Part shown: one piece after another, positions 8,301 to 26,818 of the stretch | How the letters are laid out: each line of letters starts with the position of its first letter | Numbering within the stretch: the first letter of the stretch is position 1 | NCBI GenBank assembly: GCA_030748575.1 | Contig: JASMLR010000015.1 | Span: 1-40,231, forward strand | Reading direction: 5' to 3' | Source of the DNA: Phycisphaerales bacterium | Lineage (GTDB): Bacteria > Planctomycetota > Phycisphaerae > Phycisphaerales > SM1A02 | DNA: 40,231 bases | Made by a program: the position numbers and the translations under genes | Notes under the pieces: generated by a model | What the model was told of the DNA's origin: nothing | Database searches by the model: none | Seen by the model: the letters and a program-made list of their open reading frames with translations, nothing else

Positions 8301-8726
8301 GCCGCTTCGGAAGAGCGAAGCGCCGGCAGTGGGGTTGCCGGTGAAGCGGCCAGCGGCGTCCAGCCACGCAGACGCTTCGATGTGGCTTTCTGTCGTGAGG
8401 TACGCCCGAAGGTCGGCGATGTCGGCGCGGGTCAGCCCGAGGCCACCGAAACCGTGCTCCGCGGCAACGGCGTGTTCAAAGGCCGCAGCGTCATCTCCTG
8501 GCAGCAAGGACCCGCTCCACCCGTGGCACTGGCTGCAGCGGAACGACTCCGGCCCCTGCAGCCCGCTGCCGCTCGCGAGCGGATGGGTGCCTGTTGGGCG
8601 CGGGGCGCCCGACTCAAGCCACCAGGTGTCCCACAGCCTTCCGCCGCGGACCGCGTCGGCCGCCCAGGCAGGCATCGCCAGGGCCAGAAGGGCCAGTGCT
8701 GCGGTGGAGGTGCCGCGCCGGCTCAT
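5334..8726 (-). CDS. Secreted cytochrome c / FG-GAP propeller / TPR fusion protein
   Basis: 1130 residues. A signal peptide (MSRRGTSTAALALLALAMPAW, likely cut after AWA near residue 22) is followed by two c-type heme sites: CSQCH at 64-68 and CVTCH at 149-153. A Met in GSVMPGWA could be an axial ligand. Residues about 265-620 hold at least seven FG-GAP/VCBS calcium loops such as DVNGDGLMD, DMDGDGDLD, DLDGDGDPD, DIDGDGDID and DLNGDGRPD, which build a beta-propeller. Residues about 680-1130 are TPRs (for example AQFRYGNVLLGRKRYDEAL). It is exported and probably periplasmic, with electron-transfer potential plus two binding scaffolds; the substrate is unknown. Its ATG overlaps the upstream CrcB stop (ATGA, 8723-8726). 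The reverse strand is open over a long stretch here, but that is a shadow. Confidence 0.85.
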   Translation of the reverse strand: MSRRGTSTAALALLALAMPAWAADAVRGGRLWDTWWLESGAPRPTGTHPLASGSGLQGPESFRCSQCHGWSGSLLPGDDAAAFEHAVAAEHGFGGLGLTRADIADLRAYLTTESHIEASAWLDAAGRFTGNPTAGASLFRSGASGGLQCVTCHGPEGAWLNFGSPQHPAWIGTMADDDPARLLHRIRFGAPGSVMPGWARTGGDLQGAVDIATFAQQELPAVAAERMGGAPYVIIPPDDPAPDLPPPLQLSLARPLGQGPAAGEHALIAHVLPRDVNGDGLMDILACDVARHGVFLLQQGPAGVFTERPIGGEIPAPVHVDTADMDGDGDLDVIVSDMGVMLPSNALIGRVLVLEQVDEAFVPHVLIEGIRRVTDARAGDLDGDGDPDLAVAQFGYVQGEVRWMENRGHWDFQSHHLMDRSGAIHSPVVDLDGDGDLDIVVLFSQEWETVQGFINDGAGGFTPLVLHDVADPDFSSSGIDTGDIDGDGDIDIAWANGDAFVSVGYRPLPTHGVQWLENRGGHQFAFHRLGQFDGAYGPTIADLDGDGDMDIAAVSEFARWSEGSPPSLRWWAQDGEGRFAAGDLDTDPTHLVTLAAGDLNGDGRPDLVAGGMALYPPMDRVQRIVAWSNEGLGAAPPLAPASPALPAAVQTAADAAATPGARGMILQANGQTAAADAAYAEAEAAQPERGRWPYFRGLLDLDVGRSEEALQHFLRAATLAEDYVPLHLRLAALHFNRGDHSEAEHAWLRAGECDEAIIGRARIAAARGDWHQVETLLASTAAPTAAALRAEARAALGLEVEPPVAAFDMGLQPVDRWRDELLERSLTAEPLVNRAQIAVIRGRHAEAERWLRHAMRTAPEDTDAAVAMANLLLGPGRATKASIDEAFSLLDAAYRARPDDLEVRSRRAWAASLIGRGQEANAEWLAIIEAFPRHAPSLFHLGQMRAASGDHAGALTFFRRGVEVPRDSAFSASFEDPLRAHWLTQYAAAAKAEGQFAEAVAAYAAAADLLPSDPMAQFRYGNVLLGRKRYDEALPHLQFGAEHGEPSGRRHTAWGYALLQLGRLDEARRTLSTAVTIDPNLAIGWFHLAAALRAGGDPQAAIEALREAVRLRPDFTRARQTLEALEGAGQ

Positions 8727-9238
8727 GGCTGCCGCCGCCCATGCGCGAGCAGCCCAACTTCCAGTCCAAGCACCACCCCTGCGGCGCCGCCGAGGACCGA
8801 CAGACCCAGATTCACGCCCGCCGTCACGAACAACCCGCCCTGCATGAGGGAAACCAGATCAAGCCCGAAGGCGCTGAACGTGGTCAGACCGCCGAGCAGG
8901 CCCGTAAATAGCAGGCCGCTCTCGACGCGGAGCCGACTGCGGGCCCGCGCAATCTCGGTCGGGGGGAGGGTCGGATCCGGCGCGAGCAGTCCGGGCACGT
9001 GGGCCAGGCGTTGGCCGCGCGGGTGGCGGGCGAGCCGGCTCTCGCCGGCGCGGTGAAGCCGGACCTCCAGCCAGACGATCAGGTAGCCGATCAGCACGCA
9101 GCCCAGCAGGTTGACTCCCAGAATTGCAGCCCAGCTCGGGACGCCCGCCGGAGCCGCCGCGTGCTCGATGAAGCCCCGCAACAGGGCGCCACACCCGCCC
9201 CCGACCGCGACACCGACCACCGTGGCGAAACCAGTCAC
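8723..9238 (-). CDS. crcB: Fluc/CrcB fluoride channel subunit 2
   Basis: 171 residues, four hydrophobic segments. Family landmarks are GGGCGALLRGF near the N terminus, VNLLGCVLIGYL in the second segment and GGLTTFSAFGLDL in the third, with the Asn and Phe residues that line Fluc fluoride pores. Fluc channels export F- as dual-topology dimers; tandem unequal copies are usually heterodimer partners. An unusual charged insert of about 45 residues (from RLHRAGESRLARHPRG onward) separates segments two and three. I chose GTG 9236-9238 because it overlaps the upstream crcB stop as GTGA and has GGAG 9 bases before it; a GTG at 9251-9253 would add five residues. Translation is coupled to the cytochrome fusion gene downstream. 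Confidence 0.88.
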   Translation of the reverse strand: MTGFATVVGVAVGGGCGALLRGFIEHAAAPAGVPSWAAILGVNLLGCVLIGYLIVWLEVRLHRAGESRLARHPRGQRLAHVPGLLAPDPTLPPTEIARARSRLRVESGLLFTGLLGGLTTFSAFGLDLVSLMQGGLFVTAGVNLGLSVLGGAAGVVLGLEVGLLAHGRRQP

Positions 9239-9726
9239 AGCGGACAGCTCCACTGACCGCCGGTCACTTTATCTCCTTCTCCGACAAGCACTTGCGCAAC
9301 CCCCCCATTCCTAAGTCCTTGTGGGACAGGCACATAAAGTGACCGGCGGTCAGTTGGGCTCAGCCAGGTGGCGGTGTACAGGCCAAGAACGACCAATCCG
9401 ACGCCGCCGACCACCGAGAGCCCGACACAGGCTGCCGCCTGCCTCCACGCCCGCGTGAGGCACAGGAAGGCCAGATCAAGGGCGAACGCGCTGAAGGTCG
9501 TGAGGCCGCCGCAGAACCCGGCCATGGCCAGGCCGCGAAGCCATGGTGAGGTGGGGTTGACGCCGGCGGCGAGCCCCATCAGCAGGCACCCGAGCAGATT
9601 GGCCAGCAGGATGCCCACCCAGCCGGGCCACGCCGTCAGCCTGATCTGGGCCAGAGCAATCCCATAGCGAAGGAGGGAGCCAATCGCGCCACCGCCAGCA
9701 ATCATCAACACCAGTTCAGACGTCAC
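9235..9726 (-). CDS. crcB: Fluc/CrcB fluoride channel subunit 1 with an element-derived C-terminal extension
   Basis: 163 residues, compared with about 125 for typical CrcB. The core carries GGGAIGSLLRYG, ANLLGCLLMG and GGLTTFSAFALDL and ends near LGLYTATWLS. The last 40 or so residues (PTDRRSLYVPVPQGLRNGG to the stop) are encoded by the inverted-repeat element at 9252-9354 plus a few native codons, so the insertion kept the frame open. The role is fluoride efflux as a probable heterodimer with the downstream copy. GTG 9724-9726 is taken as the start because TAGCAT lies 6 bases before it; an internal ATG at 9703-9705 is an alternative. No fluoride riboswitch is recognised upstream. Superoxide dismutase lies 100 bp upstream on the same strand. 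Confidence 0.87.
   Translation of the reverse strand: MTSELVLMIAGGGAIGSLLRYGIALAQIRLTAWPGWVGILLANLLGCLLMGLAAGVNPTSPWLRGLAMAGFCGGLTTFSAFALDLAFLCLTRAWRQAAACVGLSVVGGVGLVVLGLYTATWLSPTDRRSLYVPVPQGLRNGGVAQVLVGEGDKVTGGQWSCPL
9252..9354. repeat. 103-bp element with 21-bp perfect inverted ends (MITE/REP-like)
   Basis: The arms 9252-9272 and 9334-9354 are exact reverse complements over 21 bases and contain the palindrome TGACCGCCGGTCA; 61 bases separate them. The element lies inside the crcB1 reading frame, just before the crcB1/crcB2 overlap, and remains open in that frame. No target-site duplication is obvious. The size, perfect termini and intragenic position suggest a non-autonomous mobile element or REP-type repeat. 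A structural role in the crcB mRNA is possible. No second copy was noticed in the window. Confidence 0.7.
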
Positions 9727-9732
9727 AGCGGC

Positions 9733-9738
9733 ATGCTA
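9733..9738 (-). promoter_or_regulatory. Putative -10 hexamer TAGCAT before crcB1
   Basis: TAGCAT on the minus strand is 6 bases upstream of GTG 9724-9726, compatible with a leaderless transcript. There is no Shine-Dalgarno and no clear -35. Confidence 0.35.
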
Positions 9739-9826
9739 CGACGCAGCCGACGCAGTGGCGATGACGTGCAGAAGGCATCCACGTACGAACGTCGCGGCGA
9801 CGACGTGGAGGCCCGGGTGTGCCGGC

Positions 9827-10468
9827 TCAACTTGAACCGCAGCAGCAGGTCGTCTTGGCAAACCGAGCGCCGACAGCCTCCCAGTTCACCACGCTCCACC
9901 ACGCGTCAATGTAGTCAGGGCGTCGATTCTGGTAGTGCAGGTAGTACGCGTGCTCCCAGACATCCAGACACAGGATGGGCGTGCCGCCGCAGTGGCCTTC
10001 GATGGGCATGAGCGGGTTGTCCTGATTGGCGGTCGAGCAGATCTGCAGGCCGGCGTCGGTCTGGCAGACCCACGCCCATCCGGATCCGAACCGAGTCGCC
10101 GCGGCAGCCGCAAACTGCGACTTCATCTCGTCGACGCTGCCAAAGGACGCTTTGATGGCGTCGGCGAGCTCGCCGGTCGGTCCTTCGCCTCCACCGGGGC
10201 CCATGATCTTCCAGAAGACGGAGTGATTGAAGTGCCCGCCGCCGTTGTTGCGGACCGCGGTGCGGATGTCCTCCGGCACCTCGTTCAGGTTCGAGCACAG
10301 TGTGCCGGGGCACATGGCCTGAAGGTCTGCGCGACCGTCCACGGCCGCGTTGAGTTTGGCGACGTATCCAGCATGATGCTTGTCGTGATGAATCTCCATC
10401 GTGCGGGCGTCGATGGCGGGTTCAAGGGCGTCAAATGCGTACGGAAGATCCGGAAGCGTGAATGTCAT
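9827..10468 (-). CDS. sodA: Superoxide dismutase, Fe/Mn family, Mn-type
   Basis: 213 residues, normal for the family; converts superoxide to peroxide and oxygen in the cytoplasm (no signal peptide). Metal ligands are His27 (IHHDKHH), His82 (GHFNHSVFW), Asp169 and His173 ([12 protein letters not shown]); Tyr35 is the gateway tyrosine. Gly at the GGGHFNH position and Gln149 in ANQDNPL favour the manganese form. The C terminus is odd: [10 protein letters not shown], three consecutive cysteines. The start is ATG 10466-10468, with AGGAG 8 bases upstream. It is followed by the two fluoride channel genes on the same strand. Confidence 0.93.
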
Positions 10469-10578
10469 GGTGCGTCTCCTGAACGAGTGGAATGAGGCAA
10501 CGGATGATACCCGGCCCGGTTGACGCAGCGTCACTCGGACATCATCATCCGGTTTCATCACACGAGGGTTTGACGATC

Positions 10579-10695
10579 ATGACCAATCCAGAAGCGGGAC
10601 AACAGGACGAGGGCGGCTTCGGCTGCTGGTGGATGATCGTGATTGCGATCATCGTGATCTTTGCAGTGCTGGTCGGTTACATCGTGCTCGTCTGA
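10579..10695 (+). CDS. 38-residue single-pass membrane protein
   Basis: Starts at ATG 10579 with GAGGG 10 bases upstream. The product has a polar N terminus (MTNPEAGQQDEGGFG), then CWW and one hydrophobic helix of about 20 residues (MIVIAIIVIFAVLVGYIVLV) ending at the C terminus. No family is recognised. It diverges from superoxide dismutase (110-bp gap) and its stop is one base from the convergent esterase stop. The Shine-Dalgarno and a real-looking transmembrane helix support it as a gene, but length alone leaves doubt. A longer in-frame upstream start at 10492 gives an unlikely N terminus. Confidence 0.55.
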   Translation: MTNPEAGQQDEGGFGCWWMIVIAIIVIFAVLVGYIVLV

Positions 10696-26784: not shown

Positions 26785-26818
26785 CAACGCCGAGCCGCAG
26801 GCCTGCGGCTCGGCGTTG
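26785..26818 (-). terminator. 34-bp perfect palindrome after the prepilin-like gene
   Basis: The two arms, centred on CAGGCCTG, are perfect reverse complements over 17 bases and begin 10 bases beyond the stop. The minus strand continues TGTGCGTATTGCCTT, moderately T-rich. It probably ends the prepilin transcript. Confidence 0.65.

Follow-up and report, generated by a model that had tools for sequence, protein, structure and literature searches.

A REPIN-like palindromic unit as the probable source of the C-terminal tail of a CrcB fluoride channel subunit in a Phycisphaerales bacterium

The window analyzed here, a stretch of 40,231 nucleotides from a Phycisphaerales bacterium, carries a 103-bp inverted-repeat unit within crcB1, the gene for a CrcB/Fluc fluoride channel subunit. 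The unit is very probably a palindromic, non-autonomous mobile element, of the REPIN/RAYT (or TIR/TIRYT) type, that was captured in crcB1, where the protein tail it encodes is most likely tolerated. Because the GTAG foot is absent, the term REPIN/TIR-like is used here and the unit is not classed as a GTAG REP.

The unit and the crcB gene pair

The unit occupies positions 9252–9354, with no strand assigned to it as a whole, and has perfect inverted ends of 21 bp, ACTGACCGCCGGTCACTTTAT; one arm, containing the small palindrome TGACCGCCGGTCA, lies at 9252–9272 on the plus strand, and the other at 9334–9354 on the minus strand. According to a simple base-composition estimate, ~1e-5 such inverted repeats are expected in the whole window. 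The 103 bp include two bases outside the TGACC...GGTCA core (9254–9352), the length of which, 99 bp, is a multiple of three. A single frame is open through the unit, on the minus strand, and it is the frame of crcB1 (9235–9726, minus strand, 163 aa). Residues 125–158 of CrcB1 (34 aa) are encoded by the unit and read TDRRSLYVPVPQGLRNGGVAQVLVGEGDKVTGGQ; WSCPL and the stop codon follow. The crcB1 stop (9235–9237) forms a GTGA overlap with the GTG start (9236–9238) of crcB2, which encodes a second CrcB/Fluc subunit (8723–9238, minus strand). A longer crcB2 open reading frame (ORF), from 9253, would begin at the unit edge, and the GTG start was taken instead. A possible ribosome-binding site of crcB2, GGAG, was read by eye at 9248–9251 on the minus strand, adjoining the unit. 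The preliminary description of this DNA had placed a 103-bp unit with perfect 21-bp inverted termini inside crcB, with the frame and the GTGA coupling to the partner gene preserved, and all of this is confirmed. Its statement that the unit supplies the last third of the protein is overstated, as only 34 of 163 residues are involved.

The channel domain itself ends before the unit: the Pfam CRCB match in CrcB1 (75.9 bits) spans residues 7–116. In an AlphaFold2 model built from 6 sequences (mean pLDDT 72.6), the last long helix covers residues 94–122, and the successive blocks of the tail, with pLDDT values of 61, 52, 45, 45 and 51, have almost no secondary structure. In CrcB2, the CRCB match extends over residues 15–164 for a model of 103 positions; a stretch of ~45 residues lies between the two halves of this protein and is also present in same-genus CrcB2. 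No Rfam match was found in 8500–10600, and therefore there is no fluoride riboswitch in this region. Elsewhere in the window, a perfect G+C-rich 34-bp palindromic inverted repeat lies between two called genes (26785–26818); it is probably an ordinary hairpin or terminator, though without a T-run after it.

Is the extension of CrcB1 shared by related species? A crcB match was found in six of the eight same-genus genomes, G003 and G006 being those without one. In all six pairs CrcB1 is short, the NTGA overlap with crcB2 (ATGA or GTGA) is kept, and the unit was not found at E<=1. The identity of these CrcB1 proteins to that of the window is 47–55%, which is too distant to show the exact inserted bases or an empty site; a CrcB1 scan of genome contigs yielded five loci with 38–44% identity. 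Because the six same-genus pairs combine a short CrcB1 with the overlap and lack the unit, the GTGA junction must be old, and the unit entered crcB1 shortly before it. Alternatively, crcB1 may once have had an earlier stop at which the unit landed exactly, but this is less likely given the conserved overlap.

The repeat family and its transposase gene

A DNA search with the unit in its own genome (2.38 Mb in 85 contigs, 97% complete) yielded 37 matches; owing to the near-palindromic nature of the unit, most places were matched on both strands. An exact 13-mer occurred at 24 places; with up to one mismatch, it gave 64 strand-matches, versus 5 for a reversed control, and many of the 64 are one arm seen again from the other side. 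From these data we delimited a family of 17 units at 16 sites, including a tandem pair at C44 and a cluster with extra arms at C33:243 kb. Measured from arm to arm, five units are 99 bp long, eleven 98 bp and one 121 bp. The unit count excludes the lone arms at C17, C66 and C77 as well as other 13-mer matches with one mismatch; in three units (C44_181a, C22_293 and C1_7) one end was set by length because one arm departs from the pattern. In the family alignment of 16 of the 17 units (A1, from which the 121-bp unit C2_68 was excluded), the arms hardly differ between units, in contrast to the middle, which varies. Some frame is open throughout in 6 of the 17 units, and the frame of the crcB1 type is open, on either strand, in 3. 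Neither GTAG nor GTGG occurs at a fixed place beside the arm at any of the 34 ends listed, the inner side of most of them reading CTTTAT; no target-site duplication was seen by eye at these ends.

An assembly error is an unlikely source of the unit, given its recurrence in different contexts. The nearest pair in the family consists of the window copy and the copy at C11:314 kb (L009 207–309), which match at 87% over 116 bp and whose likeness extends some bases past both arms; perhaps the mobile unit is larger, or a copy was made together with its flanks. The 121-bp unit lies between two similar-looking long neighboring genes (L086, 618–2009 and 2203–3630), which we take to resemble a tryptophanase-type duplication.

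Among 61 genomes (the own genome and 60 relatives), a DNA match to the family was present in four, namely the own genome and three of the eight same-genus genomes. One copy in G002 has its outer flank in common with the copy at C22:293 kb and, judging from these sequences, was probably inherited. In G002 and G003, which are incomplete (83 and 87%), family units are present and no RAYT was detected (L051, L052).

The own genome possesses a single Y1_Tnp gene (C33:55441–56082), and this gene is bracketed by two units of the family (L025 1357–1479 and 2140–2262). The protein of 214 aa, with a C-terminal tail and the motifs NHWH, YQ and YIHWNP, has its best match in REP_Tyr_transpos (NCBIfam NF047646) at 66.1 bits, which is under the cut-off of 80, compared with 17.3 bits for IS200; its score with PF01797 is 51.1 bits. 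In an alignment of sequences from 7 of the 12 fetched loci (A2, without L064, L066, L067, L069 and the shorter L060), the HUH motif (HWH) and the catalytic Tyr are invariant. The profile of these seven sequences found TnpA-REP (4er8) as its best solved match (1.3e-5); phmmer with the RAYT sequence alone found no solved structure at 0.001.

A relative of the RAYT is present in 23 of the 61 genomes, within the genus only in G000 and G001. The own RAYT locus lies between prolyl-oligopeptidase and efflux genes; at the corresponding site, G005 and G006 show a weak, decayed unit match without a transposase, and G007 and G008 show no unit at E<=1. When the element profile was compared with the 12 RAYT loci, strong matches were obtained only in the own locus and sub-threshold ones in L068, and an exact 12-mer inverted-repeat scan of 11 loci detected gene-bracketing palindromes only in L058 (own) and L068. 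Thus, the association of repeats with RAYT genes in relatives is mostly not seen by this crude 12-mer scan. In L068, which belongs to another family of the order (G059), the palindromes at 1292–1414 and 2217–2345 have the end GGGACAGGTACATTTTAT and a middle like that of the window family, and they match the profile weakly.

The proposal of the preliminary description that a MITE/REP-type insertion had become protein-coding is supported. The search for the arm revealed further copies in the genome and in same-genus relatives, a RAYT-like Y1 gene lies between two of them, and the comparison with element-free crcB pairs showed neither repeat nor extension in all six; neither a solitary copy nor orthologues extended without the repeat were encountered.

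Units at gene ends and the route to the tail

The positions of the units relative to genes were established with a home-made codon score; gene ends are therefore approximate, and the distances were recounted. At 15 of the 16 sites, a stop codon lies in the outer arm or within 9 nt of it. At 10 sites, neighboring genes (12 in total) use the outermost TGA of the unit or cluster as their stop, and at five more the stop sits 1–9 nt outside the unit; the sixteenth site is crcB1 of the window. Two further ORFs, the RAYT and one at C44, terminate inside units. For scale, 162 of 2859 intergenic window positions lie within 10 nt of a stop. Unit-free sites in the genus agree with this picture. Seven same-genus amidohydrolases with a readable end terminate in a native TGA, TAG or TAA without a unit, five being equal in length to the own protein and two longer by one or two residues. 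RuvX has the same length as the own protein in six of eight relatives, and at its gene no unit was found at E<=1 in seven of them, G007 giving a very weak match (0.28). This comparison leaves out the aminotransferase, for which two of three loci gave no end, and L126, which lies at a contig end. Together, the empty sites and the stop counts indicate that a position at or beside a stop, with the arm often supplying the new stop, is the rule for the family. This near-confinement to gene ends may reflect either target choice or survival. It is rather unlikely that the family and its RAYT choose stop codons as targets, the arm TGA replacing the native stop with gene length unchanged, and that the crcB1 copy is a rare misframed landing turned into protein.

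Under the capture reading that we prefer, the lone Y1 transposase would have mobilized the element in single-stranded form, a mechanism proposed for related systems. The element entered the last few codons of crcB1 in a frame in which translation is stopped neither by the arm TGA nor by the middle, and the crcB1 frame was kept by its net length. Since the arm TGA is out of frame in crcB1, translation continues as far as the old GTGA junction with crcB2; ribosomes would thus read through the element to the stop/start overlap, and the channel would gain a tail of 34 residues behind the last helix predicted for it. This tail is most likely a tolerated passenger rather than a useful part of the protein.

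Alternative explanations and relation to known systems

Another explanation to be considered is that the element is kept as an mRNA hairpin between the cistrons, which would adjust crcB2 relative to crcB1 or stabilize the crcB1 message; the preliminary description had likewise envisaged a hairpin tuning the ratio of two subunits. The predicted transcript hairpin of the window unit is strong (-75.9 kcal/mol, z -5.85, with none of 200 shuffles folding as well), the end of the unit adjoins the GGAG that is likely the crcB2 ribosome-binding site, and E. coli REPs situated <16 nt from a stop are reported in PMC12306157 to lower translation. However, the arms can pair in every family copy whatever gene adjoins, which makes the hairpin a trait of the family rather than of crcB, and here the ribosome must translate through it. 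Across the family, 78.8% of cells are paired in register versus 33.3–43.4% when slid, and G-C/C-G exchange is frequent at two pairs (columns 37–67 and 40–64), but the covariation does not stand out from shuffles, its score being reached by 53 of 500. We consider this explanation unlikely: the tuning of a subunit ratio found no direct support, the strong predicted hairpin comes with the element, and a regulatory role is not needed to explain the data.

We regard it as improbable that CrcB1 has come to make use of the tail, for example in assembly with CrcB2. The tail is in frame and stop-free, which holds for few units of the family in that frame (3 of 17, on either strand), but its sequence is simply the family sequence read in that frame, it is absent from all six same-genus CrcB1 proteins found, and the model from six sequences assigns it low confidence and almost no structure. 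Nor do we give much credit to the unit being a MITE of an ordinary DDE transposase whose adjacency to the RAYT is coincidental. A length of ~100 bp, terminal inverted repeats and many copies would suit a MITE; the lack of visible target-site duplications, the small palindrome carried by each arm and the bracketing of the only Y1 gene in the genome by two copies argue against it.

How does the family compare with described systems? REPINs with their RAYT (REPtrons; Bertels and Rainey 2011, PMC3116915) consist of a pair of inverted REP-like arms around a variable spacer, which fold together into one long hairpin; their copies are dispersed between genes, and the same repeats flank the transposase gene. 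In all of this the window family is similar. Unlike them, it has no GTAG foot (a requirement covered in PMC8266576), comprises only 17 units and has a RAYT under the model cut-off; compensatory change in the spacer is a further REPIN feature, to be compared with the covariation score given above. TIRtrons and TIRYT (Di Nocera and others 2013, PMC3733652) are similar in that a RAYT-like gene is flanked by inverted repeats that lack GTAG, are in some cases self-complementary and have copies elsewhere in the genome, whereas the TIRtron motif GGGGWSAS given there was not recognized by eye in the family ends. The Y1 protein has no exact match to subclass 2.1 as tabulated in PMC6006769 (NHVH or NH[YF]H; W[EQ] or FQ; YIELNP or Y[IV]HLNP; median 238 aa).

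Coding capture is also on record. Intragenic REPs have been published for other families, and REP ends donating stop codons for GTAG REPs (PMC3733652), where the Rickettsia RPE is named among intragenic palindromic repeats; as in those cases, an in-frame palindromic insertion adds some tens of residues and the ends give stops, but the sequence is different and the donated stop is TGA in the window family and TAG there. The crcB1 capture is C-terminal, a location reported for slightly >10% of the cases in that source. In the subclass 2.4 RAYT genes of PMC6006769, a REP insertion likewise keeps the reading frame, but it sits in the transposase itself, between its HUH and Tyr motifs, whereas crcB1 is an unrelated channel gene. 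The window family was not found in the literature on REPs and RAYTs, searched by text and not by sequence.

The separate aspects, such captures included, are already known for other repeat families. The crcB1 copy is a clear example from nature of protein sequence derived from a mobile hairpin, and short orthologues are available for comparison. Moreover, the near-confinement of the units to stops, together with the empty same-genus sites, makes it testable whether REP-type elements choose gene ends or are tolerated there.
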